In this document: positions 32,507 through 64,000 of the stretch, piece by piece | How the letters are laid out: every line of letters begins with the position of its first letter | How positions within the stretch are numbered: position 1 is the first letter of the stretch | NCBI GenBank assembly: GCA_963662175.1 | Contig: OY759218.1 | Location: 10,904,001-10,968,000 of the forward strand | Reading direction: 5' to 3' | Length of the DNA: 64,000 nt | Origin: Aradus depressus | Taxonomy: Eukaryota; Arthropoda; Insecta; Hemiptera; Aradidae | Program-made: the position numbers and the translations under genes | The notes under the pieces: generated by a model | Seen by the model: only the letters and a program-made list of their open reading frames with translations | Database searches by the model: none | What the model was told of the DNA's origin: nothing

Positions 32507-32577
32507 TTTAAGTTCCTTAAATAAAACAACTTATTTTTGAAATATTGTCTATTTCACTAAAGATATATATATATATA

Positions 32578-32613
32578 ACTACCGGTTTCGGCCTTACACC
32601 ATCGTCAGGTCTA
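32578..32613 (-). ncRNA. Hammerhead-ribozyme-like motif (left arm)
   Basis: Mirror image of the motif at 32,628-32,663 and identical in the core. Confidence 0.6.
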
Positions 32614-32627
32614 GTTATGAACTTATA

Positions 32628-32663
32628 GACCTGACGATGGTGTAAGGCCGAAACCGGTAGTTA
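32628..32663 (+). ncRNA. Hammerhead-ribozyme-like motif (right arm)
   Basis: gac / CTGACGA / extra T / helix II GGT-gtaag-GCC / GAAA / CCGG / T A / GTT. CCGG is self-complementary, so helix III can form only between two copies (dimer) or be minimal; UA gives an allowed NUH cleavage site. Helix I pairs gac with gtt (one wobble). The core letters fit the published hammerhead consensus except for the single unpaired T before helix II. Confidence 0.6.
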
Positions 32664-32826
32664 TATATATATATATATCTTTAGTGGAATAGACAATATT
32701 TCAAAAATAATTTTGTTTTATTTAATTATTACAAGTTTTCACAATATGTCCGCGTTCCTCAACTTAGAAATTGAAGTTCCTGCTAGATTGTAGGTTATTA
32801 GTCGTAAAAATAGTGATGGTAAAGTA

Positions 32827-33369
32827 TTATTGCAAATGCGAATCTAAATATCGACGAGAACTGTGGATGTTGACCTGGCAGTTTAGGTAGGGAGAAGCAT
32901 TTAAATTTGTACGGATTTTTCGGATTGCTTCACGCAAACGGCGTTGCATTTGTAGGTAATACTCATCCTTATTGAACATTTGACCTTTTGGCAAGAACAC
33001 AGGGCGCTCGTCATTTTCAACGTCTTCACGGCCTTCTTGAAAGCGCTTATACCACTCGTAAACCCTAGTTTTACTCATAGCAGACTCACCAAAAGCAATA
33101 TTTAACATTTCTAAAACTTTACTGCACTTTATTCCATTTTTATAGCAAAATTTAAAGCAAATTTTCTGATCCAATCTGTATATTCGCCGATCGTACCAAA
33201 ACGCATGTAACCACTTTGACATCTGACAGCAGACTAAACATACGGTTTGGTTAACAATGACAGATACTTTTCAGACATGTTTACTAACACAACGAAAAAA
33301 TCGCGCGAATAGGACTAAAACAACCCGGGAAATTATAAAATTTCTGTTACTTTTTGAACACACCTCGTA
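32827..33369 (-). pseudogene. Mariner transposase with large internal deletion
   Basis: The minus strand from 33,222 encodes the mariner DNA-binding half (KICFKFCYKNGIKCSKVLEM, then MSKTRVYEWYKRFQEGREDV, then ENDERP). It then jumps directly to FLPKGQMFNKDEYYLQMQRR and LREAIRK, which in relatives lies just before the second catalytic Asp. The first Asp and about 130-170 residues are gone, and the frame leaves the family after IRTNLNA. One terminus is visible: acgaggtgtgttcaaaaagt in reverse complement at about 33,349-33,368, next to TA. The other terminus was not found. It is non-functional. Confidence 0.85.
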
Positions 33370-33589
33370 CATACTTAGTATGTATAAGAAATAAGGGCTA
33401 TATGACATAATATCAAAGTATAAGTCTCACCCCTCTTAGCGCCTCTATATACGGTGTATTTATAATAAAAAGAGTGTACGCATTTTTATTTTTCTTCTTG
33501 CAATTTGATAGTCTTTCCTAATTTCTTATATATACTATATATTCTACTATAAACCCCATTCTTTACCTGACACAGGTATATTTAATGAT

Positions 33590-33711
33590 GTTTAACATTT
33601 TTGCAGAGATATTGTGAAACACTTGATAAAAATAAATAAAACGTATGTTTTTTAAAAAATATTGTCTATTTCACAAGTAATATATAATATGGGAGTACTT
33701 TCTTCACTACT
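33590..33711 (-). repeat. PLE terminal-repeat fragment (minus)
   Basis: Read on the minus strand: gaaagtactcccatat, then gtgaaatagacaatattttt, then the tail cacaatatctctgcaaaaat. It lies immediately upstream of the PLE coding remnant but in the opposite orientation to it, a typical PLE terminal arrangement. The CTGANGA half is missing. Confidence 0.6.
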
Positions 33712-34513
33712 TCACAGAGCCTACACAATACCATTAAACGAAGACAACAGAAACACAGAGTTGGGCATCATTAATAATATAGGCAAATGAAAACGGATAC
33801 AATAGTCACATTATTGATAAGATAAGACGTAAAGTCATAAACAGAATACATTTAAAAGACATTTCAAAATTAGACACAACAAATAATACAGGGACTAAAA
33901 AATGGGTGGGATTACCGTATTTTGGAAAAATTTCTGAACAGATAGGAAATATACTTAAAAAGAGGACTTTTGGGTAGGTTTCAGAACTAATAATACTATA
34001 CACAAACATCGCAACAACACTAAGGACAACATAAAAACAGAAGAAAAAAGCGGGGTTTACCAACTAAAATGTAGTTCTTGTAATTTTGTTTATCAAACCG
34101 GGAGACAATTTAAGAATAGGGTGAAAGAACACGTATCAGAAATAGGGCTAAACACCGACACATCATATAAATCAGTAAAATCAACTTTCGCACAACACAT
34201 CAACGAAAACAAACACCATTTCGATATAAATACAGGCATACAATACCTACATTTTTGTGACAAAGGTACATTACTCAACTCACTGGAACAACTAGAAATA
34301 AACAGAGCGCTACAAAAAGGAAATTGTATGAACGATCAGACCAATCTTAAATACTCACCCCTTTTTATCGCCAATAATATAATCCTCCAGTCTCTGTGTA
34401 TACGTACTTACTCTCTCAAAAAACTGTATATTTTATTTTATAAAACTTTTTATTTTATTTTTATTCATATATTAACAATTGCTATCTTTAATTCACTTCA
34501 TATATGCATTTAA
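33712..34513 (+). pseudogene. Penelope-like element, C-terminal GIY-YIG region
   Basis: Frame segments read LHRAYTIPLNEDNRNTELGI, then the linker FRTNNTI, then GVYQLKCSSCNF-VYQTGRQF, then NRVKEHVSEIGLNTDTS and so on to a stop. PLE proteins end in a GIY-YIG endonuclease preceded by exactly such an LHRA segment. The usual YIGQTGR motif is YQTGR here, as if two codons were lost. A one-base shift at about 33,965 (ttttgggtag) and a stop at about 33,788 break the frame. The reverse transcriptase is absent (5' truncation). It shares its 3' UTR to about 34,700 with the copy at 61.74-62.69 kb. Confidence 0.85.
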
Positions 34514-34700
34514 TCAACACATACTGTTTCAAATATTTTATTTTTAAGATCCCAATTTGGGACGAAATGTCATTTTTTATGTTTTTACATATTTCAAATA
34601 TTGACTGTACAGAAGGGATAGGAAAACCCCGTAGGGGCTGAAAAAGGATACCTACCTACCGCTTGGATTGTAAACTACCTAGTTGAACTTTAGTATTTGT
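34514..34700 (+). repeat. PLE 3' untranslated region
   Basis: tttgggacgaaatgtcattt, then gtaggggctgaaaaaggata, then agtatttgttaagt. The same segment appears at 61,735-61,915 (minus) and, diverged, at 48,063-48,207. In the latter it runs into the hammerhead-like pLTR, showing the normal order coding-UTR-ribozyme. Confidence 0.75.
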
Positions 34701-35118
34701 TAAGTTGTGTGAAAATAGGTCCTGTCGTTCAGACTGTTTGAATAATCATCAGGTTTTCCCGACAAAGTTGTCTCTATGCTGCTCTTTCTTTACAAAAAAA
34801 TGTTGTTTAACTTTGGCAAAAAAATGTATGGAACAAAAAATAATAGAAACGAAAAAGTCTTTCATATCCACTCAGGCAATTTTTAACGTAGTAATTTTCT
34901 ATACTATACAATAGTAACTGAGAAAACATAAAATAACTTTTTCTGTCTCCAAGTAAACTCCTTTAAGTGACTTTGTAATCACATGTATTCTAAATGTTAA
35001 TCCTGAATGGGCAGATTCAAAATATATGAAGTTTGGTTGAAATATATTCAGCGTTTTTCCCCTGATGAAATGACAAACCGACAAACAAACAGAAACGAAA
35101 GCTAAAACCTAAAGTATC
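34701..35118. other. No gene; LINE 3'-end-like stretch
   Basis: 34,980-35,100 (gaagtttggttgaaatatat, ttcagcgttttt, gatgaaatgacaaaccgaca) resembles the 3' ends of RTE-type LINEs and their SINEs. This rests on memory of those families. No tail or target duplication was seen. Confidence 0.4.
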
Positions 35119-35128
35119 GTCTTAGTTT

Positions 35129-35194
35129 CTAAGTTGAGGAAAGCGGAAATATTGTGGAACTTGTAATAAATAAATAAAACAAACTTATTTATTG
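35129..35194 (-). mobile_element. 66-bp, severely 5'-truncated fold-back tail with 10-bp duplication
   Basis: On the minus strand it reads cttatttattgg-side to the tail ttccacaatatttccgcttt, then cctcaacttag, which is the one-sided tail of fold-back unit 1. It is flanked by GTCTTAGTTT at 35,119-35,128 and 35,195-35,204. It shows that the tail end is the constant (3') end of the insertions. Confidence 0.65.
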
Positions 35195-35204
35195 GTCTTA
35201 GTTT

Positions 35205-36100
35205 GACGTGAAACCAAGGCCAATCACATCCCATTAACCGAAAGTTGAACATTTCAATGTTTTTAAATTAACTACGAGTAGACAATCAGAAATTCTTCAA
35301 TTTTCCGAGAATGAATATAGTTTAGACTGTGTTAAGGGTCAAACACTTGAGATACAAAACATTAACTATAGGAGGAGCGATGACTATTTATTTCTCTTAG
35401 GCTTTATTATATTATTGTTATTATACATAATTTATTGTTGTAACAACAGCGATAATAATTTTCTGGTGCCGGGGCAATAAGGTAAATAAGTAGCATGGCT
35501 GATTCAAAAACGTTTATTCGAGAAATGAAGACATAGAAATCAGAGGTAAGTGTGTGCAACTTCACCTGCGGGAGGAGTACTGGGCCCAAGCTATCATACA
35601 AGGGGGGTCAGGCAATTCTCGGCTCAAACGGGACCAGAGGATAGATAGCAACCCCGACGATTGGGTGTAGAAGGACTCAATTTATACTGATTCCGAACAA
35701 AGAGAGGACTGCCTGCTTACCTTAGATCTTTATCTAAGGACATGGCTAGTGACGATGGGATTTAGTAGGTATGCGTAGTGTCTAGGCTAGAGAGTGTAAT
35801 GTAAGAGTTGATATGGACCAAGGGAGAAGTGAAGACAATCTAGCTGAGTCGGCCTTACTGTATAGCTTGCACATCAGGCTGCTGCCTCACAAAGGGACAA
35901 AGAGAGTAGCATGTATGCCACACTATAAGGGTAATTAGTACTTTATAGAAATAACAGAATAAACATAACTTTTAAGTCTAAAAACTATTTTATTAGTCAC
36001 TGAAACAATATTCTACGGAAATAAAAATGTTCTGCTATTTGTTCTAGTAGTTTCTGATATTAAAATTATATTAATTCAAAAGAAGCGGATGATCTTTACA
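35205..36100. other. No genes recognised
   Basis: A moderately GC-richer block (35,560-35,930) contains a hairpin, ccttagatctttatctaagg, at about 35,719. No family match on either strand. Confidence 0.4.
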
Positions 36101-36129
36101 GCATGGATAGCCAAATGCGCAAAGAGGAA

Positions 36130-36425
36130 TGACTGGAGCTGGAGCTGGATGAATAGCACCATGAGCACATCAAGGAAAAGGATCAGTTCAGAAGAAAAAG
36201 TAAAAATCAAGAGTATGATCGTACTAAGCCAAGCGTTCGTTCACTTGCCGAAAAAATAGACATAGAAAAGACTCAAGTTTCAGACACTTAAAAAAAACGG
36301 GACGTAATTTTAAAAATGTGTTCAGAAAATATTAAAAACCAAAAAATTAAAAATGTTATACGATCGGGTAAAACTTTGCAAATCGAGACCTGCGTTCTGG
36401 AATGGTTTATTAGCGCAAAATCACA
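36130..36425 (+). pseudogene. Tigger/pogo-like transposase, N-terminal fragment
   Basis: It carries MSTSRKRISSEEKVKIK, then, in other frames, RSLAEKIDIEKTQVSD and ENIKNQKIKNVIRSGKTLQI followed by CVLEWFI. This is the CENP-B-type double helix-turn-helix. It has the same two frame breaks as the copy at 39,839 (before SVRSLAEK and at the A run after QVSD), so both descend from an already broken source. It ends abruptly at about 36,415. Confidence 0.8.
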
Positions 36426-36599
36426 CATGTACGTACATATAATAAATCAATGTTCAGTATGTACATACTTGTCAATTTAATAAATGTTATCAACAAAATT
36501 CATACGTGTTTCATTCCTTAGTTCACCTAAAAGCACTTTTTTTTATGCTTTGATATATTTTTTCTCATTAATTGATGATTTCCGTCATCCGGCGTCACG

Positions 36600-36805
36600 T
36601 CGGTCCCGGCAACGCCCGATAAGGGAGAGTCTACTGTACTAAGATTATAACTAATTCTGAACATTTTCACTGTTCGCGTCCGCTATTTAGAGGCTCCGCT
36701 AATAAGCGAGTGAAATGTGTTAAAAATCCTATCTCAATGTTGGGGCAACTGGTATTGTCCGGTATTGAGAGGTGTCCGTTAGTAGAGGTTTCACTATAGT
36801 AAGTA
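36600..36805. mobile_element. Pogo/Tigger-type element ends
   Basis: Two right-end-like termini: cgataagggagagtctactg (about 36,617) and gtgtccgttagtagaggttt, then cactata (about 36,775). Such ...tctactgta and ...tttcactata ends with Watson-Crick runs of tccg are typical of pogo/Tigger inverted repeats. No left partners were found, so these are fragments. Confidence 0.55.
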
Positions 36806-37238
36806 TAAATTGTAAGTAAGTCAACATTGATTACAAGAAAAAGTATGTAATTCTCATGACTTTTTGTTTCTGAATGGTTGGAAACAGATTCAAAGGAAAA
36901 TATAATGAAGTGAAAATGAATCGAACATGCTGTAATCAACTGCTATTGTTGTTATAAATTAAGGGAAGGGGGGCACCATTATGACCACCCAGTGGAATTT
37001 GCTTAAAAATTCCCTGCTAAACTTAATAACCACAAATAACAAAACGTTAAATTTTTAATATGTAACGTTATTTATCAGAATTTATTCTGCTGTCAGCTTG
37101 GGTCAGAATGAAGGTTATCAGGTTATGAGGTGAACTGAAATTTTTATAGACATTACTTATGTAAAAGATTAAAAACAATAAGCAAAAAATATTAATTTGT
37201 ATCCTAAATAATACTTTTTCTTTTAGTATTTATATATA
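36806..37238. other. No genes recognised
   Basis: AT-rich, with short uninformative frames only. Confidence 0.45.
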
Positions 37239-37586
37239 TAGGTTAGGTTAGGTTTTATTACTCATGCCCGGGCTTTAACTACGAGGTCATATCGCCTACT
37301 ACCAGAGCGCTCTTTCGTCACTCTGGTGGACATGAGCCCGACTCTACTGTGGGAGTCCTAAATTTTGCCTACTCTAAATTTTTGTTTACAAAGGATAGGG
37401 GTCTTTAACGAGTACCTGACATCGTACAGGCTCGGGACCATCGCTTAACGTCCCATCCGAAGGACGGCGTGCTTAAGTTTATTTTACCTCCCAGATAAAA
37501 TAAACTAAGGGCCACCGGTCGGGTTACGAACCCACGTTCTTGAGCTCAGAAGTCAAGCACGCATACCACTGAGCTACCGGCGCCCT
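37239..37586 (-). mobile_element. tRNA-derived SINE family 1, near full length (minus)
   Basis: The head ggcgccggtagctcagtggt (reverse complement, ending 37,586) and T arm gtgggttcgtaacccg are followed by the full body and the tail cctaacctaaccta. It is flanked by tatatatatag on both sides, a plausible target duplication. Best full-length reference for the family, about 345 bp. The gttaggttagg tail could be mistaken for insect telomere repeat but belongs to the SINE. Confidence 0.88.
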
Positions 37587-38513
37587 CTATATATATATAG
37601 TTATAACAGTTATTTTACTAAAGGGAAAATTATTAATTAAAGAAATTTTATTTTTAAATTACTTAATAAAATAGGATCGGTGGATTCTTTTATGATGACA
37701 TATTGAGTGGAAAGTGACGTACAAAGAGGAATGATACAACCATTACTTTACACAAATTTTAATTGTATATTTTATAATATTTTCACTCCAAAGACAATAA
37801 ATCTACTAAAACTCTATATAAAACAATTATATTTTGTGAAAAATATCAAAATTACAAAAAACTTTTTCCTATATCTGTTCTCTACCCTATGACTCTAAAA
37901 AATTTCTTTTATAATAAAAGTTTATTATTATTTTTTTTATTAGTAAAAACTATTTCGTTTTTTTACTTGCGGTCTCGTGTTGAGATGAGGATGAATTTGG
38001 ATGAGTGTTCTCTGCAGGGAATTGAATCTTTCCTTGTTATTTGCTTACATTCAGGTATACAATCTCACCACATCTGCCAACAATCTGGGAACATCTATTC
38101 CAGCATCAGTAGATCCTGTTGTGCTTGAATTTCACCAAATCACAATACTCGACTACCACTCAATCACAGGGAAGAGCTACAGACAAACACGCTTCTCTCC
38201 ACACACTCTGTCTGCCATTGTTTTTTAACCGGTCACTGGATTTTTTACAGATTTAATTTTTTTTTTTTATATTATTTTATTTAAGTTCAATTTTCTCCTC
38301 ATCCATTTCTATTTTCTTTTCTATTTTTATTATTTTTTTAAACTACTTTTTTATTTCATTAAATTTATTAATCTAGTTTTAATTAATCCCTGATACTAAT
38401 TGATTCACCCAATCAATCGATTCTAATTAATTTTTTATATCATACTAAGTACCCCCCACAAGTCCCCCCCCCAATACGATACATTTTCAGAAAGTTATGT
38501 AGTGGTCAAAGGA
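37587..38513. other. No confirmed gene
   Basis: A plus-strand frame at 38,001-38,228 (VDPVVLEFHQITILDYHSIT) ends just before a pyrimidine-rich, C-run-containing stretch that resembles 24,900-25,080. It could be the 3' end of an unrecognised LINE; I cannot place it. Confidence 0.35.
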
Positions 38514-38702: not shown

Positions 38703-39038
38703 GTATACAGGGTTTCCAAGATATACCGGCCAATAACTCAAAAACTGATCAAGAGAACTTTTCAAAGGACCAAAGTAGTAGGTCTTGTGAATACGTATTC
38801 AGAAACTCAAAATTCTCATGAGGCAGGGCATAAACATAATTTTGAGAAGACATATTTTATCTTTTCAAAAGTACTAAAAAAAAGTCGTCGGTAAGTCACC
38901 GGCAATGTACTTCCCCAGAACGAATTAACCAATTAACTTTTCTCTCCCTCTTCAAAACCATTCTACAGTTTGCGCTAATATTCAACAGTTATTATTAAAA
39001 TTCTGGGGGTATTGAGGGTCAGTCAATGAAGAAAACAC

Positions 39039-39094
39039 TATTCAAATGCCAACGTTTCGATATATTTCATATCATCATCAGGGCTATGAATATA
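39039..39094 (-). ncRNA. Hammerhead-ribozyme-like motif, unit 2 left arm
   Basis: Mirror of the motif at 39,189-39,242, with the same core, helix II and two-part helix I. Confidence 0.65.
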
Positions 39095-39188
39095 GATGGT
39101 TGAGGAGAAGGCATGAAGACTGTGAGGTCTTACGTTCAACTCTCAACTCGTAAGATCTCAGTCTTCATGCCTTCTCCTCAACCATCTA

Positions 39189-39242
39189 TATTCATAGCCC
39201 TGATGATGATATGAAATATATCGAAACGTTGGCATTTGAATA
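39189..39242 (+). ncRNA. Hammerhead-ribozyme-like motif, unit 2 right arm
   Basis: Outer helix I TATTCA/TGAATA (39,189-39,194 with 39,237-39,242), an internal loop (ta against att), inner helix I GCC/GGC (39,197-39,199 with 39,231-39,233), core CTGATGA (39,200-39,206), one extra T, helix II GATAT/ATATC with a gaaat loop, GAAA (39,223-39,226), CG, then TT. Helix III is only ACGT between copies, and the cleavage-site base would be U. The internal loop in helix I plus a helix II loop matches the tertiary contact layout of natural type I hammerheads. Confidence 0.7.
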
Positions 39243-39599
39243 GTGTTTTCTTCATTGACTGACCCTCAATACCCCCAGAATTTTGAATTCTACAGTCGCT
39301 AGCAAACATCTTCAACAGTTAACTTACATAAGGGCTCCTAAATTCTCATAGTAAATTTTGTGTCGATAAATTCATTACCTCGGCAGTTATTAAGGTTTTT
39401 GAATTGAGCCCCCTCCCCTGAACTGAAAAGTAATGTTTCGTTCTTATTGGATTTTGAATCCACATATGAAATTTTAGGAATAGATAATTAAAAATACACA
39501 ATTGGTTCGTCAAACTTCACTATTCTTAAATACTCGACTAGTTTCGCCGTGTTAAGGCATTATTAAGAATCACTATGACTTTGGATTTTTGATATTATT

Positions 39600-40915: not shown

Positions 40916-41417
40916 ACAACTTTACTGTATAATATTATTTATTAAAATAATTTTTATGAATTATAGGAAAAAACGTTTCTATGATATTTTTATGATTTTT
41001 TTTTTAATGTCCGCCATTATTGATTATTTTTCGCGTACCACCAACCAGCAACTCGCGTACCACCAATGGTACGCGTACCACAGGTTGGCCGTGGTATACA
41101 TACATGTGGTACACTACATCCTAGTTTGGATTTAACGTTTGGTTTACTAACTTTGTTTAGTATATCAATTGATTTACACGTATCGATATTGGAACCATTA
41201 GCTTCAGTCGATCTTTAATTGTTACGATGTATTTATTTATTTCATCTATCAGAACTGTTCTACCATTACTTATTTGTAATTTTTCTATTGCATCATCTTT
41301 TCTTATGATCTTCCCAGGTCTCCTTTTCGAGAGCTTTGTTTAATTCAAATGGACTTGAAAAATAAAATAAAACTTGTTTATTTAATATATTGTCTAATTT
41401 CACTAACTATATATACA

Positions 41418-41453
41418 TGGGAGTACTTTCGGTATTTCTACCATCCTCAGCCA
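41418..41453 (-). ncRNA. Hammerhead-ribozyme-like motif, unit 3 left arm
   Basis: Exact mirror of the motif at 41,489-41,524. Confidence 0.65.
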
Positions 41454-41488
41454 AAAGCATAAGAGATAAGTCTTATCTCTTATGCTTT

Positions 41489-41524
41489 TGGCTGAGGATG
41501 GTAGAAATACCGAAAGTACTCCCA
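41489..41524 (+). ncRNA. Hammerhead-ribozyme-like motif, unit 3 right arm
   Basis: tgg / CTGAGGA (41,492-41,498) / extra T / helix II GGTA-GAAA-TACC (41,500-41,511, a GNRA tetraloop) / GAAA (41,512-41,515) / GTAC / T C / cca. GTAC is self-complementary. UC is the most common natural hammerhead cleavage context. Helix I pairs tgg with cca. An identical sequence sits at 62,739-62,774 beside PLE coding DNA. Confidence 0.68.
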
Positions 41525-42245
41525 TGTATATATAGTTAGTGAAATTAGACAATATATTAAATAAACAAGTTTTATTTTATTTTTCAAGTCCATTTGAATT
41601 ATTTCACAATATCTCTGCAATAATGTCAGTTTTGATTTGTTTAATTCGTCAAGTTTTTGGTTACTAACATTTCTATATTTAAGACATTGAACAGTGTTTT
41701 TAATACTGTCCGGAATGCTAAATGACATGGTAATTCCTTCATGATCCGAGATCGCGGTTGATTCTATATTCACTTCAATTTGCTCTAATGGGATATTGGT
41801 TGCTACAGTCTAGGGCTCATGATTTATACTTCCCTATCCTCGTGGGTCCAATAGTTGTTATTGTTAAATTGAAAGAGGCAAGTAAGTAATTTTAGAAATT
41901 TAGATGCTGGGTTTTCCCCGGTGAAGAACACAGTTGTCACTACCGAGGACCATAAAACCTTTTTTCTGATTGATTACCCCTAGTGCCTGCTCTAGGTTAT
42001 GGAAAAATATACCTGGGTCACCATTCGGTCGTCTGTAAACGCAAAGAATATAATAATTCTTTGAATTCTTTTCAAAAAATTTAACCTTTGGACCGGACCA
42101 CTCAATGTGTTCCTCAACGCAAAAAATTTTTTAATTTTATTTTTGTATATGCTATTTGCGAGTTATGTTTTTTAAATATGCAAGCACCGCCGTGCTTTTT
42201 GTGTGACCTATTGAATGAGCTTACAATATTTTAGCCTTCTGTATT

Positions 42246-44320
42246 ATACAGGGTGTATCGCAAGCAGATGACAATACTCGGGGGGGTGAATGCCCCACTC
42301 AAGTACACTAAGAAACCGGGGTAACAAAAATCCGTTTCAAATTGGTGTAGAAAATAATGAGATTTTTAATTTTTTTTTTTTTAACCACGTTTTTTTAGCA
42401 AAATATCCGTAAATATCACTTTTTGGTTAAGGTAAAGTGAAATCTGACTACACTGTCGTAATCTACGTTAAATTTTCTAATAGGTGATATGTTTTTTGAC
42501 ATGAAAATCGAAAAGATTGAAATAGGAGGCTAACGTTTATTTCAAAAGAAACACCTGTTTAAATTGTTTGGCAAATTTTCAGTTTCCCGTAATTTGTTTT
42601 CTCTATTCGCTAGGATGTCCCAAATTCACCAAAAGTTAGCAAAAATATGGCCCTTTAAAAAAATACCTAATGTTGTTCTTTATTGTCGACCATTGCCGAA
42701 GTGAGACAGGAGAAAAGATGAAAAACATGGGTGAACCTAACTTACACAAAGCGAGACTTTTGACAAAATTAACAAAAATTGAAATTATTACATTAATCTT
42801 TCAGAGATAAAAAAAGTTTTGTACTGTACATTGTTTTGGAAAAATTATAACAATTGCTGAAACAGACCTCCATCTTCTCACAATTGACTCCTCGTTAGAA
42901 CGGATGTGGTGGCCCGTTGAATCTCAAGCCTGTTTGTTCCCATCTCCTCACAAACCTCTTGAATTCTCGCGATTAATTGGTCCCTATCATCAATAGATAC
43001 GCTGTACACACGGAACTTTAGAGTGCCCACACATCAAAATCTAATGGCGCCAGTTCAGGACTCCGAGCCGGCCATCTCACAGGTCCATACCGTCCAATCC
43101 ACCTTCCACAACGCGCCGGGTGCTCATGGACGGATCATTGTAAAAGCACTCTAAAATATCTCATTCATCGTCGACCGGCATAATTAGCAGGTTGTCTTGG
43201 AATCGAACCAGGTTCTCCCATAATCCGATAGGCATTTTCTACGGTTCGGCGATTCGGCCATCTTTGTCGATTTGGGAATAGATTTCGATAAATTTATTCT
43301 GCTAGCAGACTGTTGCCTCCAGCGGCCCTTAATCATATATCATGGTTACGTATTCCCGCGCTGTAAAAAACCGGCATGATTCTCTTAGACTAATGTCTCT
43401 CAACCGAATCTTTGCACAAAACTGTTTATTGGATCTAATAATGTTTACATTGGCTAATATGTCTAACGTTTTTTTTCAGTTTCAAAATCCATTGTACCGA
43501 TTAGGATTATTATTATTTTTTTTACTCTCTAATCTTCAACAGAAGCCAACAATAGGGAAAACAAAAATAACTTTATTAATTCAGAGGAAAAAAATAATTA
43601 TTTATTATTTCAGAGAATAATGGTAATTTGGTGAATTTAGAACATCCTAGCGAATGGAGAAAACAAATTACGGTAAATTGAAAATTTTCCAAAAATGTTG
43701 TTATAATTTCTTCAAAACAATGTACAGTACAAAACTTTTCTTATCTCTGAAAGACTAATGTAGTAATTTCAATTTTTTTTAGATAATGAATTAGTTAATT
43801 TTGTCAAAAGTCTCGCTTTGTGTAAGTTAGGTTCACCCATGTTTTTCATCTTTTCTCCTGTCTCACTTCGGCAATGGTCGACAATAAAGAACAACATTAG
43901 GTATTTTTTCAAAGGGCCATATTTTTGCTAACTTTTGGTGAATTTGGGACATCCTAGCGAATAGAGAAAACAAATTACGGGAAACTGAAAATTTGCCAAA
44001 CAATTTAAACAGGTGTTCCTTTTGAAATAAACGTTAGCCTCCTATTTCAATCTTTTCGATTTCCATGTCAAAAAACATGTCACCTATTAGAAAATTTAAC
44101 GTAGATTACGACAGTGTAGTCAGATTTCACTTTACCTTAACCAAAAAGTGATATTTACGGATATTTTGCTAAAAAAACGTGGTTAAAAAAAAAGTTAAAA
44201 ATCTCATTATTTTCTACACCAATTTGAAACGGATTTTTGTTACCCCGGTTTCTTAGTGTACTTGAGTGGGGCATTCACCCCCCCGAGTATTGTCATCTGC
44301 TTGCGATACACCCTGTATAC
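42246..44320. mobile_element. DNA transposon with ~600-bp terminal inverted repeats, coding core deleted
   Basis: The left end tatacagggtgtatcgcaag (42,246) and right end cttgcgatacaccctgtata (to 44,320) are exact inverses. The inverted match extends to about 42,850 and back from about 43,690, with small differences. A segment of the right arm (aaattacggtaaattgaaaa near 43,670) is repeated at 43,973, giving an extra duplication. The flanks fit TA-type target duplication. The interior carries transposase edges only (next entry). It is inserted in the LINE endonuclease domain. Confidence 0.88.
42879..43300 (-). pseudogene. DUF4817-type transposase, N- and C-terminal edges fused
   Basis: On the minus strand, LFPNRQRWPNRRTVENAYRI then MGEPGSI matches the N-terminal helix-turn-helix region of a transposase family common in arthropods. 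It is followed almost at once by GRWIGRYGPVRWPARSPELA and PLDFDVWAL, then, after a one-base shift at about 43,020, LKFRVYSVSIDDRDQLIARI to TRSQL and a stop at 42,879. RSPxLxPLDFxxWG is the conserved C-terminal block of the same family. All DDE residues lie in the missing part. The assignment rests on motif recall. Confidence 0.75.
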
Positions 44321-47940: not shown

Positions 47941-48062
47941 CTAATGATATACCTCGTATATTGTTATGCATACATATTTGTATTTTAATCAGCATATACA
48001 ATTTCAAAATTTTTCTTTTATTATTAGATTCAATCTGACACGAAATTTTATTTTAAATGTTT

Positions 48063-48207
48063 TCCTTATTTTTAAGACAAGAGGAACAGGAAAAAACCCC
48101 GTGGGGGCTGAAAAATGGGAATGTTTGGATTGTCAAACTGATTGAACTTCCATTTAGTATTTCTAAGGTCATGGCTGAAAATGGTAGCAATGCCCAAAGT
48201 GCTCACA
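48063..48207 (+). repeat. PLE 3' UTR running into a mutated hammerhead
   Basis: accccgtgggggctgaaaaa to agtatttctaaggtcatgg, then CTGAAAA / TGGTAGCAATGCC / CAAA / GTGC / T C. Two core letters are altered (G8 and the G of GAAA). The repeat continues at 49,248 (ttttatatattttgtgaaat) after an inserted element. Confidence 0.65.
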
Positions 48208-49247
48208 TATAAACTCCTCATTAAAAGTATTGCAACACCCAATTTTTTCTCATTTCTTAACAACTATCAGCAATAACTGACTCCTTTCGTAAAATAGTCA
48301 CACTTTTTACTCGATGTACCGTAGAGATAGTCCATCCTCACAAAGCAACAGCTCGGGTAGCTTCTTTCACACTAAGATTCATTATGTTAATGAAAAAAAA
48401 CCTCCAATGTTTAAAAGAAATATGGCTGAGGCCCTAAACAACCGAGAGAATTGCCAATAAACTGAAGAATTTAAAACTGGAGAGATTAAGGACTAAGAGA
48501 TTTCAGTATTAGTGCAACAATTCTCAATCCCCAAACGTGGATAATTGTCTTTGTTATTCAAGGACATACTGAAGACAAAATAAATAAAGCAGGCCACGAT
48601 TTTAATTAGAAGTAAATATTTACAGAAAACACTATTCAAATGCCAACTTTTCGATATATTTTATATCATCATCAGGGCCTACAAACATGGGGGGGAAATC
48701 AAGTTTAGAATCAAAAATAAACAAAAATTTTTTGTTGATAAACATTACTGAACGTTAGAAATACCTGATAACAAGTTAAAAATTGAAACTGACTTACTAT
48801 GAACACATTACTTAACATTAAAATTAAATATGAATACATTACTAAACATAAACATTAATAATGGAAATAGATATAGAAATAGAAATTAATAGACAATAGA
48901 AATTAATGTTTATGTTTAGTAATGTATTCATATTTGATTTTTATGTTTAGAAATGTATTCATAGTAAGTCAGTTTCAACTTTTAACTTGTTATAATGAAT
49001 TTCTAACGTTCAGTAATGTTTATCAACAAAAAAATGTTTGTTTATTTTTTATTCTAATCTTGATTTCCGCCCCATGTTTGTAGGCCCTGATGTTGATATA
49101 AAATATATCGAAACGTTGGCATTTGAATAGTGTTTTCTTCCATCTTGGACTGACCCTCAATATTCCTACAATTAGAATCTACAGTTGCAAATCAACATCT
49201 ACATTTACAGAAATATCTAGGTGTTGCAATACTTTTGATGGGTGTAT
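48208..49247. mobile_element. Tc1/mariner-type non-autonomous element
   Basis: Inverted ends cattaaaagtattgcaacac (left) and gtgttgcaatacttttgatg (right), next to TA. It splits a PLE terminal repeat. No transposase frame was found; about half its length is fold-back unit 4. Confidence 0.75.
48629..49202. mobile_element. Fold-back hammerhead unit 4 (574 bp)
   Basis: Arms of about 250 bp (48,629-48,880 and 48,903-49,150), then the one-sided tail attagaatctacagttgcaa, then atcaacatctac. It is flanked by perfect 11-bp duplications ATTTACAGAAA at 48,618-48,628 and 49,203-49,213. The left ribozyme motif (48,633-48,685, minus) has a changed helix III (GAAAAGTT). The right one (49,082-49,128, plus) has CTGATGT in the core. 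Both are probably damaged. Confidence 0.85.
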
Positions 49248-50779: not shown

Positions 50780-50971
50780 TAAAAAAAACTCCATAACGAC
50801 GACACCTATACATTTTCAGCGAAATCAGTCTAAGGGAAAGGGAGATCAGAGAAGGGGATCCACACAAAATATTTAATAATTAATATACTCGTAATTATTC
50901 AGAAGCCACAACGTAAGTCGAATATTAAGTTGTAGGAATATTGAGGGTCAGTCAAAGATGCAAGAAAACTT

Positions 50972-51022
50972 TATTCAAATGCCAACGTTTCGATTTATTT
51001 TATATCATCATCAGGGCCTACA
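50972..51022 (-). ncRNA. Hammerhead-ribozyme-like motif, unit 5 left arm
   Basis: GCC / CTGATGA / extra T / GATAT-aaaat-AAATC (one helix II mismatch) / GAAA / CG / TT / GGC. Confidence 0.55.
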
Positions 51023-51423
51023 AACATGGGGCGGAAATCAAGATTAGAATCAAAAATAAACAAAAAATTTTTTTGTTGATAAACATTACTGAACGTTAAA
51101 AAATACATTATAACAAGTTGAAAATTGAAACTGACTTACTATGAATAATTACTAAACATTAAAATTAAATATGAATACATTACTAAACATAAACATTAAT
51201 AATGGAAATAGACGTAATGTTTATGTTTAGTAATGTATTTATATTAATGTTGTTATTAATGTTTATGTTTAGTAATGTATTCATATTTAATTTTAATGTT
51301 TAGTAATTATTCATAGTGTCAGTTTCAATTTTTAACTTGTTATAATGTATTTTTTAACGTTCAGTAATGTTTAACAACAAAAAAATTTTTGATTCTAATC
51401 TTGATTTCCGCCCCATGTTTGTA

Positions 51424-51470
51424 GACCCTGATGATGATATAAAATATATCGAAACGTTGGCATTTGAATA
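51424..51470 (+). ncRNA. Hammerhead-ribozyme-like motif, unit 5 right arm
   Basis: ACC / CTGATGA / extra T / GATAT-aaaat-ATATC / GAAA / CG / TT / GGC. Helix II is fully paired; inner helix I has one mismatch (acc against ggc). Confidence 0.55.
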
Positions 51471-51541
51471 AAGTTTTCTTCCATCTTTGAGTGACCCTTA
51501 ATATTCCTACAATTAGAATCTACAGTCGCTAATCAACATCA

Positions 51542-51645
51542 AATATTAAGTTTTAGCCTAAATGGTCGATTGGCGTTGGAGTGAGAGCGAAAACATAAAG
51601 TGCTGGGGATGTACATAGCCGGTGATTCATCGATGCCTTTCTTTA
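51542..51645 (+). repeat. Dispersed repeat family A, 3' part
   Basis: aatattaagttttagcctaa, then ggggatgtacatagccggtg and attcatcgatgcc. This is the continuation of the copy interrupted by unit 5. Confidence 0.6.
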
Positions 51646-57997: not shown

Positions 57998-58020
57998 TTT
58001 ATCCTTTTTAATAAAAAATC

Positions 58021-58360
58021 TATTAAAAAATAATAAAACCCTATTTTAAAATTCGTTGTTCTGAGTTACAATTTAACCATTTATTTTTCCTACAAAAATT
58101 GATTTTCCATTCTATGGGACACTATAACTTCGGGTGTATCCGAAAAATTTAAGGACACATTAGCGTTTGAAGAATTTAATAAGGACTAAAGAAAAAAGAA
58201 ATGAGTTTCAAAACGACAGGACGGTTTTCGGCATCTATCTCGCAAACTGGGCAACCTGCGAAAAATCGTATTGAGTATAAAATGTACCTTTCAGTTTTCT
58301 CTACAACTTGTATTTGAAGACAGTTTCTTTAGGTCATATATATATGCGGTACCTTGTAAA
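58021..58360. other. No genes recognised
   Basis: 58,080-58,340 is ordinary AT-rich sequence with no boundary or coding signal. Confidence 0.4.
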
Positions 58361-58377
58361 ATGTACTTATTATATAC

Positions 58378-59962
58378 TAGACTAAATATATTAGACTGAT
58401 TCAAAATGCACAACTTTTTTTGTTTGTTCTGCTCTTTTAGTATCTGAAAGAGGATACAAAAACATGAATTTTGGAAAAAAGGAAAAAAAAAAAAAAAATG
58501 TCGACCAATATAACAGGTCGCGCAAGTGAAAAATGGGATTTTTTTTATAAGTGTTAAAAATTATAGATATTTTAAAACACTTTAAGCAAAATAAAATATG
58601 TAGAGTTGATTTTTTGTTTCTTAATGACTCAATTCAAATTGTATTATATACCAAAAGTTATCAAGTTCAGTTTTATCGATGATTCTTAATGATTTTTTTT
58701 ATTATAAATTTATTTTTTCAATAAAAATTTATATAATTCAACTGGTACTCGTATAAAAAAATACATATTTTTCATCTAACGCTTTATTAACTAAAGAACA
58801 TAAAATTTAATGTTAATACATAATATGAAATCAAAATTTATAAATGTATTTTCAATCTTTTATCTCAATTACAATTTTTCGGCGCAATATAAATTAAATC
58901 GCAAACTTATTGCGCGAAGATCTTGATGTTGACATTACGATCGATTTGTTCGCGTTCGGAAAGGCTTTATGATGTTCTTTTATAACTTTGTACAAATATT
59001 GTTTTTGTTCCTCATTGTTGGTTAAAACCGAGTTGAACTTTTTGACGAGTCCAACGGCTCGTTCCGCATTGTCCTTGACAACACGCAATGAAGAGACTAG
59101 CTTTTCAGCTTTTTGGTAACTTTCACTAGTTTCCCATAAATCTGGACTGATTTAAAAAAAAATCGCAATTTAAGCCAAACCGATGGAAAAAATTGTTGGA
59201 ACGATCAGAAAAAAAATCTTGGATTTTACGTTTTTCCCAAAAAACTATTTCATCAGCTTTGTTGACATTGAACCTCAAACGCTTGAGAGTTTCTTCATCG
59301 TTGCTTGACTGTTTCGAGTTTTTGACGAAACATTCGAACCTTTCGGTTTTCCTGTTTTGTGTTGTTTGTTGTGTCTTCTATTCTTGCTTTTCTTCAAGTT
59401 CACCCACTCAGTGTTGATAGCCAAAAGTTTTTTGGTTGCGTTTTTGTTTAAAATAATCGGGACCTTATTCTTGTGATAAAAATTCAAAACCAGATTTATC
59501 ATTGACTTTGCTTAATGCCAAAGAGTCTATCGCGACGTGGTGATAATAGCAGAACACCTGTAACACTTCTCTGCTATTCGGTAAGTTCTGAGAACTAACA
59601 ATCGATTGAATCTCGTGTCCAACTAAATAAAAACTTCGACTGTGCGATGTTATTTTGACAACAATTTCGTGAATTCGTCAAAAGTACGAGTGACTGAGTA
59701 AACACAACATTCGAATGTATTTACATTCGTTCAAACTATATATAAGCGCCCCTAGCGTTCTTATTGTGAACTTATTTGAAATATTTGGCGAAAATATGAA
59801 AATTATTTTTAAAAATTACATTTTTGACTTGCGCGACCTGTTATATTAGTCGAAAAAATTTATATATTTTTTTTAAATTCATGTTTTTGTATTCTCTTAC
59901 AGTTACTAAAAGAGCAGAACAAACAAAAAAGTTGTGCATTTTGAATCAGTCTAGTATATATA
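58378..59962. mobile_element. TIR transposon with ~150-bp inverted repeats, coding region deleted
   Basis: actgattcaaaatgcacaac, then tttgtttgttctgctctttt to aacaggtcgcgcaagt (58,398-58,528) is mirrored at about 59,826-59,957 (acttgcgcgacctgttatat to gttgtgcattttgaatcagt). Internal minus-strand remnants are listed next. A TATA-like ttatatatagtttgaacg (minus, about 59,748) could be its promoter. Confidence 0.75.
58894..59502 (-). pseudogene. Remnant of an uncharacterised arthropod transposon protein
   Basis: Two minus-strand pieces. 59,502-59,275 reads ATKKLLAINTEWVNLKKSKN, then RRHNKQHKTGKPKG. 59,088-58,894 reads VVKDNAERAVGLVKKFNSVL, then TNNEEQKQYLYKVIKEHHKA. From memory, both resemble the N-terminal region and C-terminal NAER-V/LI--FN--T--EEQ--LL--V--H block of a large repeated protein family in aphids and other arthropods, of unassigned domain. 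The middle is missing. The assignment needs a database search. Confidence 0.5.
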
Positions 59963-60850
59963 CTAGTGTGGTCCTTAAACATACATTTTTTTTTTGTAAG
60001 GCTAAATTTCGGTTTTTTTGAGATAAAAAAACAAGAAAAACATGTTTTTCAAATTATATGTATATGTTGCAGTCAAAGTATGAATCCAGTCAATGTATAC
60101 ACAAACTAGTCAATGTATACATTTGCTGAATTCTCTAGTCGAAGTGTACATAAACTAAAATATGCGTACTTTCACTAGTGGATGTATACACTTACGTCTA
60201 TGCCTTAGTGAAAGTATAAATAGCTAGCATTAATAATGTACACTTTTACTAGTACTCATCCAGGAATTTAAGCTACATTATTTGGAGACAAATAAATCAC
60301 AATAGATGGTACCAAATTCAGGGGGAAGGTGTGCCGGCCTACGGCCGGCGGAACGATATATCTGCCCCTCCCGTCGTTCAAAACTCGGAGGCAATCAGGT
60401 TTTTGTGAAAGCAAAATTTAGATAGATATTTATATTGTAAAATAAATTTTGAAGTTTAGTTTTAGTTTTTTTTTTTTACAAAAACCTTTTTTTCTCATTT
60501 ATTTATACTTTCACTAAGGAACACTAGAAAATGTATACATTGTCTAGTAAATGTATACATTCTCTAGCAATAGTGTTCATTTTTATAATCAATTGATACT
60601 TCCACTAAAACGGCTAGTTAATGTATACATTGACTAGTTTGTGTATACATTCACTGGAAGTCACACTTTGACTGCGACATATATAATATATGGAAAATAT
60701 CGTTTTTTTTTTTAAATTCATTTATCTAGAGGCACAATAAATTACTTCAAAAAAATTTGAAAAACATGTTTTCCTTGTTTTTTTATCTCAAAAAACCGAA
60801 ATTCAGCCTTACAAAAAAAAAAGTATGTTTAAGGACCACCCTAATATATA
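59962..60850. mobile_element. Long-hairpin MITE with subterminal CTAGT/GTATAC array
   Basis: Left end gtggtccttaaacatac (59,969) and right end gtatgtttaaggaccac (to about 60,840), with long paired arms (gagataaaaaaacaagaaaa against ttgttttttatctc; gaaaaacatgttttcc-type). Between the arms, tagt-n-aatgtatacat motifs recur about a dozen times. The centre holds a GCCGGCC/GGCCGGC hairpin (60,333-60,349) and CCCTCCCGTCGTTCAAA (60,366-60,382). Confidence 0.8.
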
Positions 60851-60867
60851 CATAAGTATATGTATAA

Positions 60868-60952
60868 TCGGGAACTTGACACTACACTAATTGTAGTGTG
60901 GAGTATAATTATTATACTCCACACTACAATTAGTGTAGTGTCAAGTTCCCGA
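60868..60952. repeat. Perfect 85-bp palindrome
   Basis: Two 42-base arms (60,868-60,909 and 60,911-60,952) that are exact reverse complements around a single T. No loop. The sequence starts tcgggaacttgacactacac. Confidence 0.95.
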
Positions 60953-61734
60953 CAAGTAGAGGAAAGTTGGAAGTGGTTAGGAAAATTTCTTAGATAATAT
61001 TTCTGAAAGGGATCTCAAGGAATTAAAGCCCGTCCAATCAGGTTAACAGCCAGTTACCCTAACAACTAGAGCTCTACAGCTCTCTATATATATACATTAT
61101 TGGATGTATATATAAATATATATATATATATAAGTATACAACATTTAATTGGGTAACTTGGAAGGAGTGGCAGGGCAGTGAGGTCCGAGGTTTAGGGTCA
61201 TTACAACATCTAAGGCCTCAACGAATTTCCACTGAAAATCAAAGAAACATAATAAATCCAATTATATCCAGTTTGGACTTATGATTGAATAACTTCATAA
61301 TGGCCAAAGTGAGAGATTTTGGAAAACTTGGCTTCAAACCATATCAATCTGTACCAAAAAATATGCGGAAAATGTGAGGGTCAAATAAGGAAGAAACGTT
61401 TCCAATTGCCACACAATGAATTAACTGAAAATTAATAGGTGAGGATTAGAGGTATTAGTATGACTACTTCTATATTCATATGTGTATACAATTTCATTGA
61501 AAAATAACTGAAATGAAATATAAGGGCCAGGTGTTACCACAGGTGTTACCGGGCGGCGCCACCGTCTGCAGGAAAAACCATCTAGCAAAAGTCAATAGTT
61601 TCTAGTAAATTTTATTTTTCTATGACTAAACAAGTTTTTCTATTTAAAATAATAGTTTTTGTCACCAATGGTCAATTACAGATGAGTAATGGTGCTAAGT
61701 TGTCTTGCCATAAATTACTACCAACTTCAGCGAC
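60953..61734. other. No genes recognised
   Basis: An AT microsatellite at about 61,080-61,135. ccgggcggcgccaccgtctg near 61,548 is locally GC-rich. No element identified. Confidence 0.4.
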
Positions 61735-62690
61735 GACTTAACAAATACTAAATTGAAGTTCAACTAGGTCGTTTACAATCCAAACTGTAGGTAGGTATCC
61801 TTTTTCAGCCCCTACGGGGTTTTCCTATCCTTTCTGTACAGTTAATATTTGAAATATGTAAAAACATAAAAAATGACATTTTGTCCCAAATTGGGATCTT
61901 AAAAATAAAAAATTTGAAACAGTATGTGTTGATTAAATGCATATATGAAGTGAATTAAAGATAGCAATTGTTAATATATGAATAAAAATAAAATAAAAAG
62001 TTTTATAAAATAAAATATACAGTTTTTTGAGAGAGTAAGTACGTATACACAGAGACTGGAGGATTATATTATTGGCGATAAAGGGGGTGAGTATTTGAGA
62101 TTGGTCTCATCGTTCATACAATTTCCTTTTTGTAGCGCTCTGTTTATTTCTAGTTGTTCCAGTGAGTTGAGTAATGTACCTTTGTCACAAAAAAGTAGGT
62201 ATTGTATGCCTGTATTTATATCGAAATGGTGTTTGTTTTCGTTGATGTGTTGTGCGAAAGTTGATTTTACTGATTTATATGATGTGTCGGTGTTTAGCCC
62301 TATTTCTGATACGTGTTCTTTCACCCTATTCTTAAATTGTCTCCCGGTTTGATAAACAAAATTACAAGAACTACATTTTAATTGGTAAACCCCGCTTTTT
62401 TCTTCTGTTTTTATCTTGTCCTTAGAGTTGTTGAGATGTTTGTGTATAGTATTATTAGTTCTGAAACCTACCCAAAAGTCCTCTTTTTAAGTATATTTCC
62501 TATCTGTTCTGAAATTTTTCCAAAATACGGTAATCTCACCCATTTTTTAGTCCCTGTATTATTTGTTGTGTCTAATTTTGAAATGTCTTTTAAATGTATT
62601 CTGTTTATGACTTTACGTCTTATCTTATAAATAATGTGACTATTGTATCCGTTTTCTTTTGGTATATTATTAATGAACTTGAATGAAATA
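61735..62690 (-). pseudogene. Penelope-like element, GIY-YIG region (minus)
   Basis: A close copy of the PLE at 33.7 kb: same linker FRTNNTI, same GVYQLKC..VY-QTGRQF, same MKEHVSEIGLNTDTSYKSVK start of the long frame (62,324-62,064), same frameshift before the linker, and the same two-codon gap in the YIG motif. The 3' UTR extends to 61,735, where the sequence enters gtcgCTGAAGTTGGTAG, the truncated start of a hammerhead-bearing terminal repeat. Confidence 0.87.
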
Positions 62691-62695
62691 AAACT

Positions 62696-62784
62696 CGTTT
62701 ATTTGTGGTATTGTCTAATTTCACAGAATATATATACATGGGAGTACTTTCGGTATTTCTACCATCCTCAGCCAAAAGTATAAG
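62696..62784 (-). repeat. PLE upstream terminal repeat
   Basis: cataaccg-side MITE, then (minus strand) tatacttttggctgaggatg to agtactcccatgtatatata, then gtgaaattagacaat and aacgagttttatttcattca, leading into the PLE coding remnant in the same orientation. Confidence 0.75.
62739..62774 (-). ncRNA. Hammerhead-ribozyme-like motif beside PLE coding DNA
   Basis: Identical in core, helix II (GGTA-GAAA-TACC), helix III (GTAC) and helix I (tgg/cca) to the motifs of fold-back unit 3. Its position directly upstream of a PLE coding remnant ties the fold-back units to PLEs. Confidence 0.68.
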
Positions 62785-62993
62785 GGCTCTTTTCGGTTAT
62801 GTGTCAGGGATTCTAAAAAAATTTCCATTTGAACTATATGTTTCTCTATATGAGGAGAATCTGGACTGTTTGAGTAAAAGGAACGACGGGAGGGTCAACA
62901 TTTTATTTCTTCGGTTACATCAAGTGGATTTACCAAGAGTAAGTGGTTTCGGTAGAAAATTTTTCAGAATCCCTGACATAACCGAAAAGATCC
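62785..62993. mobile_element. hAT-type MITE, second copy (209 bp)
   Basis: Same element as 46,745-46,955 in opposite orientation. Ends ggctcttttcggttatgtg and cataaccgaaaagatcc. The plus-strand frame (GRVNILFLRLHQVDLPRVSG at its centre) is open from end to end. It interrupts the terminal repeat, whose sequence resumes with agagataagac. Target duplication not clean here. Confidence 0.78.
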
Positions 62994-63358
62994 AAAGAGA
63001 TAAGACAAACTAAAATATTACAGAATGTCAGCCTCTTAGTGGAACCCCTCACCATCACTCCTGGTGTTCCCCATGACGTCAGACATTCTTATCTATGCTA
63101 AACTGTCAAACTGTGAGATATTTTATGAAAAGAAGGTCACAATTTTTCAAATTTATGAACCCCTTCTAAGATCTACATAGGTAATATTGTAGACTATATA
63201 ATGTTTCCTATGCATTAACAATTAACAGGCGAATAATATAACATAGCAAAAAATCAAAATAATTGGTTCTAATTACAAACTAATTAAAATTAATATACTG
63301 TTAATTATATGTATCTATTGGTAAGAGGTAAATGCTATGTATATTTAAATGTGCACAT
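62994..63358. other. No genes recognised
   Basis: Ordinary AT-rich sequence. 63,030-63,090 (cccctcaccatcactcctgg) is locally GC-richer. Confidence 0.4.
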
Positions 63359-63464
63359 CGACTGGAGGGTTATATTATTGGTTACAGTAAGGGGGAATAT
63401 TTTAGATTGTGTTAATGGAAATCGAGGTTCTGTCGTGTGAAAGAAAATGCAAAATTTGGCCAAC

Positions 63465-63513
63465 GTTTCGAAAACTATTTATTTTCTTCTTCAGGGCCTA
63501 CAGAATATAAACA
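63465..63513 (-). ncRNA. Hammerhead-ribozyme-like motif, unit 6 left arm
   Basis: Mirror of 63,609-63,658. Confidence 0.58.
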
Positions 63514-63608
63514 AACAAATTAGACATTATGGACAATGATACAGACAGAGACTTCATAATAATTTGAAAAAGAGATGGTCCATAATGTCTAATTTGTTTG
63601 TTTATATT

Positions 63609-63658
63609 CTGTAGGCCCTGAAGAAGAAAATAAATAGTTTTCGAAACGTTGGCCAAAT
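63609..63658 (+). ncRNA. Hammerhead-ribozyme-like motif, unit 6 right arm
   Basis: GGCC / CTGAAGA / extra A / helix II GAAAA-TTTTC with a 7-base loop / GAAA / CG / TT / GGCC. Helix I is a 4-bp GGCC/GGCC pairing. The cleavage-site base would be U, as in units 2 and 5. Confidence 0.58.
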
Positions 63659-64000
63659 TTTGCATTTTCTTTCACACGACAGAACCTCGATTTCCATTAA
63701 CATTGAAAAGATACTGTCGACTCTATAAATCATTTTAGATTGGTTTGGTCGTTCATACAATTTCTTTTAAAGTTCTGTTTATTTCTCATTGTTCTAATGA
63801 GTTGAGTAATGGGCTTTTTTCACAGAAATGAAGGTATTTTATGCCTGTGTTTGAATCAAATGTATGTTTGTGTTGGTTGATGTGTTGTGCAAATGTTGAT
63901 TTTGTTATGTTGTGTCTAAGTTAGTATCTATTTCTGATACGTACGTACATATGTTCTTTGAGTCTATGTTTGAATTGTCTCCCAGTTTGTCCTGTATAGA

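Follow-up and report, generated by a model that had tools for sequence, protein, structure and literature searches.

Palindromic units found in a 64,000-nucleotide (nt) stretch of the Aradus depressus genome (GCA_963662175.1, contig OY759218.1, positions 10,904,001-10,968,000 of the forward strand; this whole stretch is called the window below) are probably insertion products of Penelope-like elements (PLEs), in which both strands of the target prime on the leader RNA of the element at two fixed sites, and most of the palindromes would be built at insertion itself. The window holds six clear palindromes (U1-U6), each made of two arms in inverted orientation and an extra tail on one side only, as a preliminary description of this DNA had reported. 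The same description took the arms for PLE terminal repeats (pseudo-long terminal repeats, pLTRs), and judged by their sequence this is what they are. Its further proposal, that stand-alone dimers move as units copied by a PLE enzyme, survives in part: the units are most likely insertions with target duplications made by a PLE enzyme, but the palindromes seem to move as units seldom, if ever, given 31 distinct junctions in 32 units and arms of the same allele in 28 of 29.

Ends, junctions and source of the arms

Genome-wide surveys of families A (that of U2), B and D covered 697.7 Mb on 74 contigs. Firstly, all 40 scored places of 1213 first-look candidates were examined for the U2 family; they make up 39 loci, one locus with two right arms having been entered once, and positions were numbered on a 174-nt sense leader used as a yardstick, which from nt 1 onward reads AGTTGAACG. 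The right arms end at nt 170-174 in 39/39 loci; 26 of them begin at nt 1, and none begins beyond nt 23. A left arm adjoins in 32 of the loci; its outer end lies at nt 142-150 in 30 of them, at nt 155 in one and at nt 107 in one, and none of the 32 ends at the distal site of the right arms. The inner end of the left arm lies at nt 1-4 in 22/32 units, and both arms are complete to nt 1 in 12/32, with 12 different fillers of 2-16 nt between them. Over the whole family the filler measures 0-18 nt or is replaced by a small overlap and, when junction identity is scored by the inner arm ends and the filler, 31 distinct junctions are counted in the 32 units. Element DNA extends upstream of nt 1 at locus L031, and 14 bases of that upstream DNA are held by the right arm of L035; nonetheless, nt 1 is the stop for most arms of both kinds. 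Hence nt 1 is a stop point and not the edge of the repeat, and it would most simply be read as the 5' end of an RNA.

Secondly, the two arms of a unit usually share their source. A G/A difference could be read in both arms of 29 units, of which 11 are A/A, 17 are G/G and one is mixed, so that 28/29 carry the same source allele in both arms. Independent draws would mix about half of the units, and at most one mixed unit in 29 is far below one in a million by hand arithmetic that treats the units as independent. At a second variant site both arms carry the variant in three of four units, while a third is found in one arm each of two units and resembles late mutation; arm-to-arm differences number 0-3 in 20/21 units. 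Arms of the same allele would result from a single RNA molecule, from two RNAs of one locus or from a later conversion of one arm by the other.

Thirdly, fixed ends are also found outside the U2 family. Of 40 scored places among 1716 family D candidates, the analysis took in 15 loci. In 14 of them the tail stops at the same point and in L062 one base earlier; an inverted arm lies no more than 1.5 kb upstream in 11 (four loci are without one), and the outer end of that left arm is at nt 128-134 in 9/11 and at nt 116 and 120 in the other two. Between 40 and 1236 base pairs (bp) separate the family D arms, so longer copies have the same ends too, and U6 stands at the short limit of the range. Among seven loci of family B (the U3 type), an inner stop is common to four and the joints differ.

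Two observations concern single loci of the U2 family. L028 and L033, on different contigs and with different junctions, have a near-identical flank (CTTTGG followed by ATTAGATTTAA), which may reflect two insertion events into the same site of another repeat. The L004/L041 region (C4:48053000-48060000) contains a left arm and GGGTTAAAAGTGAGCA repeats, together with two right arms separated by 272 bp.

Palindromes of the window and their Penelope-like sequence

All units are described on the + strand. U1 (family C, 32518..32770) has arms at 32518-32613 and 32626-32718 and a tail at 32719-32770; U2 (family A, 38992..39310) has arms at 38997-39125 and 39156-39284 and a tail at 39285-39310; U3 (family B, 41346..41635) has arms at 41341-41470 and 41472-41601 and a tail at 41602-41635. 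Two older units belong to family A': U4 (48629..49202; arms 48624-48859 and 48902-49138, right end extending to 49202) and U5 (50932..51541; arms 50930-51202 and 51253-51512, tail 51513-51541). U6 (family D, 63410..63731) has arms at 63410-63537 and 63575-63702 and a tail at 63703-63731. The tails of the window palindromes are about 26-52 bp long, except for the 64 bp of U4, whose left arm is truncated and about 36 nt shorter than that of U5.

The flanks of U1 to U6 share exact strings of at most 8, 11, 12, 11, 11 and 11 bp, respectively. The duplications are TTCAACAGTTA around U2 (38981-38991 and 39311-39321), TTTGTTTAATT(C) around U3 (starting at 41335 and 41636; 12 bp common, with 5-6 bp overlapping the left arm), ATTTACAGAAA around U4 (48618-48628 and 49203-49213), AATATTAAGTT around U5 (50921-50931 and 51542-51552) and ATTTTAGATTG around U6 (63399-63409 and 63732-63742, free of ambiguity). 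For U1, the exact 8 bp alone are not significant, since as much is shared at 14% of random places; once the end of the tail is set from an independent copy, a single family C pLTR fragment with tail on the - strand (35126..35190, between GTCTTAG(TTT) repeats of 7-10 bp), the flanks become 11 bp with one mismatch, TTTAAGTTCCT (32507-32517) and TTGAAGTTCCT (32771-32781). At random places of the same geometry, an exact 11/11 match is found in 1.4% and a match of at least 10/11 in 4.3%, implying that the set of six duplications is not due to chance. The arm sequence also accounts for 6, 5 and 2 bp of the shared string in U3, U4 and U5, so only U2 and U6 give the length of the duplication cleanly.

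A fixed length of 11 bp had been put forward as a hallmark of the units. In the window this stands for U2, U4, U5 and U6, and for U1 with one mismatch, but U3 shares 12 bp; genome-wide it fails, and the target duplication is narrow in length but not a constant 11 bp. Duplications were scorable in 29/32 units of the U2 family: the longest shared string measures 11-13 bp in 18, 10 bp in two, 14-15 bp in eight (hence 10-15 bp in 28/29) and 5 bp in one (L032, which a separate scoring put at 9 bp). After removal of the bases that could be assigned to an arm or a tail, a length of 11 fits 13/29, 12 fits 19/29 and 13 fits 14/29; no single length fits all 29, and the duplications of L007, L012 and L025 are exactly 12 bp. 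In family D the longest shared flank strings, which are raw matches counted without a shuffle control and in which as many as 6 bases could be part of the arm, are of 11 bp in four loci, 12 in six and 14 in one. Those of family B are of 12, 13, 12 and 14 bp in four loci and of 4-6 bp in three.

Empty sites exist in the window itself. When the two flanks of U2, of U5 or of U6 are joined with a single 11-mer between them, they align through the junction with no gap to unoccupied copies of the same host repeats; each of these has a single 11-mer, in which the closest copies have one substitution. Such single-copy sites lie at 5789-6006 and 855-663 for U2 and at 34398-34131 and 62048-62314 for U6; the copy for U5 (53854-53660) is only 68% alike. 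U2 and U5 occupy two members of one repeat family, at insertion points that differ by 2 bp, and the other members (at 5789, 855, 49492 and 53660) carry no unit; U6 sits in the endonuclease (EN)-coding part of another PLE.

Two decayed family B units on the + strand, U7 (31814..32062) and U8 (about 25260..25423, limits approximate), each keep an inverted pair and a one-sided tail, and the right arm of U7 begins with sequence of a PLE 3' untranslated region (3'UTR). No convincing flanking duplication remains around U7, and none was found around U8, whose flank match is only 9 bp of low complexity. The tail is on the right side of the + strand in all eight window palindromes (U1-U8, 25260-63731); the orientation of the U2 family is even genome-wide (20 + and 19 -), so the one-sidedness of the window would be local or due to chance. 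A further 255-bp, 97% palindrome (I2, 29363-29888) has a 16-nt centre and a GAAACGTC motif resembling a degenerate core; it has no tail, and no convincing duplication was found around it.

The link of the arms to PLEs comes from contiguous sequence. In locus L031, a GIY-YIG open reading frame (ORF), a 3'UTR and a complete family A leader/pLTR (nt 1-174) follow one another; the ORF matches PF01541 with E 2.5e-4 and 21.7 bits, slightly below the cut-off of 22.6. L031 is a 5'-truncated PLE; a short inverted arm (nt 145-118) lies at the far end, and the flanks of the element match exactly over 10 bp. Upstream of the family D leader of L060 there is an EN stretch 49% identical to the L031 ORF. Within the window, a PLE 3'UTR continues straight into a family B pLTR core at 47973..48215 (+), which links the arms to PLEs. 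Two 5'-truncated PLEs of the window also bear family B pLTRs: at 33594..34740 (+), an antisense pLTR with outer tail (33594-33702) is joined to an EN-side ORF fragment (33959-34513) and a 3'UTR, and at 61731..62787 (-), a sense pLTR (62787-62669, core 62742-62771) is followed by an ORF (62486-62064) and a 3'UTR. A third, divergent copy (63347..63989, -) is split by U6. All PLE coding copies examined are 5'-truncated, with no reverse transcriptase (RT) stretch among them. The EN fragments of the window match I-TevI (1mk0) only weakly (E 0.24-0.25), and the window copies have no GIY-YIG Pfam match; an NCBIfam scan gave nothing relevant, a protein search with the EN fragment found no relative at E<=0.001, and its single-sequence structure model is poor (mean pLDDT 40). 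Of the features of EN-containing PLEs, the following are found here: a GIY-YIG ORF collinear upstream of the pLTR (L031), the pLTR, its inverted upstream copy, a tail of 30-40 bp at one end and a short target duplication.

Each arm had further been credited with a hammerhead-like core. A descriptor composed of stem I, CUGANGA, stem II, GAAA, a loopless palindromic stem III and H17 matches 11 sites, one in a PLE copy and the others in ten of the twelve arms of U1-U6, and has no match in 100 dinucleotide shuffles; the claim stands for these ten arms but not for U4, neither arm of which matches. The right-arm cores lie on the + strand at 32631..32659 (U1; mirror 32580-32608 on -), 39200..39230 (U2; mirror 39051-39081), 41492..41521 (U3; mirror 41421-41450), 51428..51458 (U5; mirror 50984-51014) and 63618..63650 (U6; mirror 63462-63494), all mirrors being on the - strand. 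Stem III is a loopless palindrome of 2-3 bp, and one additional base follows CUGANGA in 11/11 sites. Among seven cores, at least one pair per helix varies on both sides, the first pairs of stems II and III are invariant, and one stem I pair is non-standard in one core. The Rfam hammerhead models, proposed earlier as a check on every arm, have no match in the window at the gathering score or at E<=10, and the Rfam scan otherwise gave sub-threshold hits only, mostly microRNA models on hairpins. PLE hammerheads are usually minimal and devoid of helix III, according to the portion of a review available to us (PMC6155905). A hammerhead fold of the arm cores is likely, with putative self-cleavage. 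Cleavage was considered as the process that defines the ends of the units and rejected: full arms contain the whole core, so the unit ends are not set by it. DNA patterns of three core types and of the PLE endonuclease fragment had no match in a collection of viral contigs, nor had one of these patterns in a collection of genome contigs.

Elsewhere in the window, inverted repeats of 403 bp, 99% alike and 1 kb apart, lie at 42374-44193; a near-perfect hairpin at 60866-60954 matches Rfam mir-556 below the gathering score; and tandem repeats at 19152-19991 and 26411-27049 keep open reading frames in several frames.

Proposed priming on the leader RNA and its alternatives

In the scheme that we favour, the target would be cut with a stagger and both 3' ends would prime reverse transcription of the 5' leader RNA of a PLE. 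One strand would begin at a fixed distal site (nt 174 in the U2 family) and the other some 29 nt upstream, at a proximal site that is also fixed (nt 145). The two complementary DNAs (cDNAs) would proceed to the 5' end of the RNA (nt 1), where they would be joined via a few filler or microhomologous bases. The product would be a head-to-head palindrome, its one-sided tail being the stretch between the two starts, and the stagger of the cut would leave the target duplication. A read-through transcript (ORF-3'UTR-pLTR) would give a longer, 5'-truncated PLE with the same ends, such as L031 and the long family D copies. An ordinary PLE messenger RNA would yield only a leader dimer, as copying would begin within the RNA and close to its 5' end. 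Priming of both strands by the PLE protein, and the origin of the duplication from the stagger of the cut, are our inferences.

A stricter version is possible, though we advance it with some doubt: twin priming would be obligate and asymmetric on one RNA, with an RT dimer seated on the same leader, the leading RT at the proximal site and the following RT at the distal site, one footprint (about 29 nt) apart, each fed by one cut strand and both running off the capped 5' end. If true, this single rule would be enough to account for the leader dimers, the tail and the one-sidedness, as well as for the inverted pLTR and for arms that carry the same allele. Separately, the proximal start site of families A and D lies within a possible stem, GACTG/CAGTC in family A (39255-39310) and CGACAG/CTGTCG in family D (63672-63731), with the distal start about 12 nt beyond the stem, which makes the stem a candidate recognition structure; families B and C fold differently.

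Several points weigh against priming on the leader at two fixed sites. The U2-family query included the tail, so only tail-bearing units were detectable. The inner end of the left arm lies farther in, at nt 17-122, in 10/32 units. Seven of the 39 loci have no adjoining left arm: L038, L039 and L040 look like single copies, flanked by repeats of 14, 12 and 11 bp, L031 has its short inverted arm farther off, L004 is a complex repeat with a left arm farther off and an 11-bp duplication (ATTAATTATAA), and L020 and L021 also belong among these loci. L018 is the unit of mixed alleles, and a unit's own right arm is the nearest, or tied nearest, for 18/21 left arms and not for all. Microhomology at both ends blurs the length of the duplication, the flank strings of the genome loci were counted without a shuffle control, and several family D strings are A-rich, some of them beginning 4-6 bases past the tail end. 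One junction is shared by two units, U2 (locus L001) and L006, with identical inner ends and the same 7-nt filler but different duplications. Lastly, the two ends always differ here, proximal versus distal, whereas no start-site difference between strands was found in vitro for the Poseidon PLE of Anolis carolinensis (PAc).

Among the alternatives, we consider it unlikely that a single cDNA, primed at one end of the target, folds at its 3' end and copies itself, the copy then being joined to the other target end. Such self-priming has been proposed for the inverted pLTRs of Adineta vaga, in the portion of the report available to us (PMC3846280), and it would fit the near-identical arms of most units (0-3 differences in 20/21). 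The copy would, however, begin at the centre of the palindrome, and shortening would be expected at its outer end; 10/32 left arms miss instead their inner part and keep the outer end at nt 144-150, and the 12 units with both arms to nt 1 have 12 different fillers.

Slightly less credit is due to the view that the palindrome is itself a non-autonomous element, being transcribed and then copied whole by a PLE enzyme. The junction common to U2 and L006 speaks for it: these loci lie 775 kb apart on one contig, and either the palindrome was copied whole or the joint recurred. U4 and U5 are alike over their full length, with a short common stretch at the centres of their left arms; with these centres included, informative sites group their arms by unit at four positions and by side at three. 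Outside the centre and the tail, the same pair gives five sites by unit, none by side and one crosswise; U2 and U5 give 26, 0 and 2, and U2 and U4 21, 0 and 0, so that arms group by unit and not by side. The spread of junctions, 31 distinct in 32 units, refutes unit mobility as the main route; as a minor route it stands, and a ready-made palindrome may occasionally be copied too, as for L001/L006.

A DNA transposon or miniature inverted-repeat transposable element with long terminal inverted repeats, carrying PLE-like sequence by chance, is very improbable. Mutator-like elements make duplications of 8-11 bp, and both the palindromic form and a duplication near 11 bp would suit them, but the termini are not mirror images, with an extra tail at one end (eight window units; 30/32 left arms at nt 142-150 against right arms at nt 170-174), the arms are PLE pLTRs, and single-armed copies with flank repeats exist. 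No transposase-coding copy was noticed between the arms in the loci examined, where no dedicated search was made. Fold-back artefacts of the assembly are scarcely credible: palindromes are a known weak point of assemblies, but target duplications, empty sites, fixed ends and junctions that differ at most loci stand against them, as do assembly contigs of up to 108 Mb.

Known systems and significance

Inverted pLTRs, tails and two-strand priming are already known for PLEs. The available parts of a report on Adineta vaga describe PLEs (Pen2a and others) with inverted pLTRs, one-sided tails of 31 bp, palindromes and duplications of 8-10 bp; in these elements the inverted pLTR lies next to an ORF or captured DNA, and those parts do not describe stand-alone dimers, a common inner stop or a pairing of start sites (PMC3846280). 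Inverted pLTRs and short 3' extensions of PLEs also figure in the accessible portion of a curation guide (PMC8969392). In vitro, the PAc protein cuts and extends both strands, starting at two adjacent internal sites of the RNA, and the tail found in the genome corresponds to the stretch between these sites; a hammerhead lies in the pLTR, and ribozyme cleavage is dispensable for insertion (PMC11167929). The units of A. depressus would resemble PAc in having two internal starts with the tail as the interval between them; the evidence for PAc is an in vitro assay, and here it consists of genomic junctions. Retrozymes, as far as the available part of the source goes, are likewise small, non-coding, hammerhead-bearing and retrotransposed, but they consist of repeated direct copies made via circular RNA, whereas inverted repeats, a common inner stop and no ribozyme-defined ends are found here (PMC7229834).

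Outside PLEs, another parallel is LINE-1 twin priming, in which both cut strands prime on the element RNA and leave an inverted 5' part with microhomology at the joint. The two LINE-1 pieces do not overlap, while here both strands would copy the same stretch and give a palindrome. Leader dimers, the strict pairing of start sites and arms of a single source look new; among the papers surveyed, titles and abstract openings contain no description of stand-alone leader dimers or paired start sites.

If most of these palindromes are, as we propose, built by priming on the leader, they record the insertion of a little-understood group of elements: both ends and the joint of each event are kept, and dozens of junctions can be read. 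The rules that emerge are simple and testable, namely two start sites, one inner stop, arms of the same source and a narrow duplication. They offer a possible reason why small pLTR palindromes can be numerous next to PLE genes, and they carry a warning for annotation, as such palindromes would mostly be by-products of PLE insertion and not a separate transposon family.

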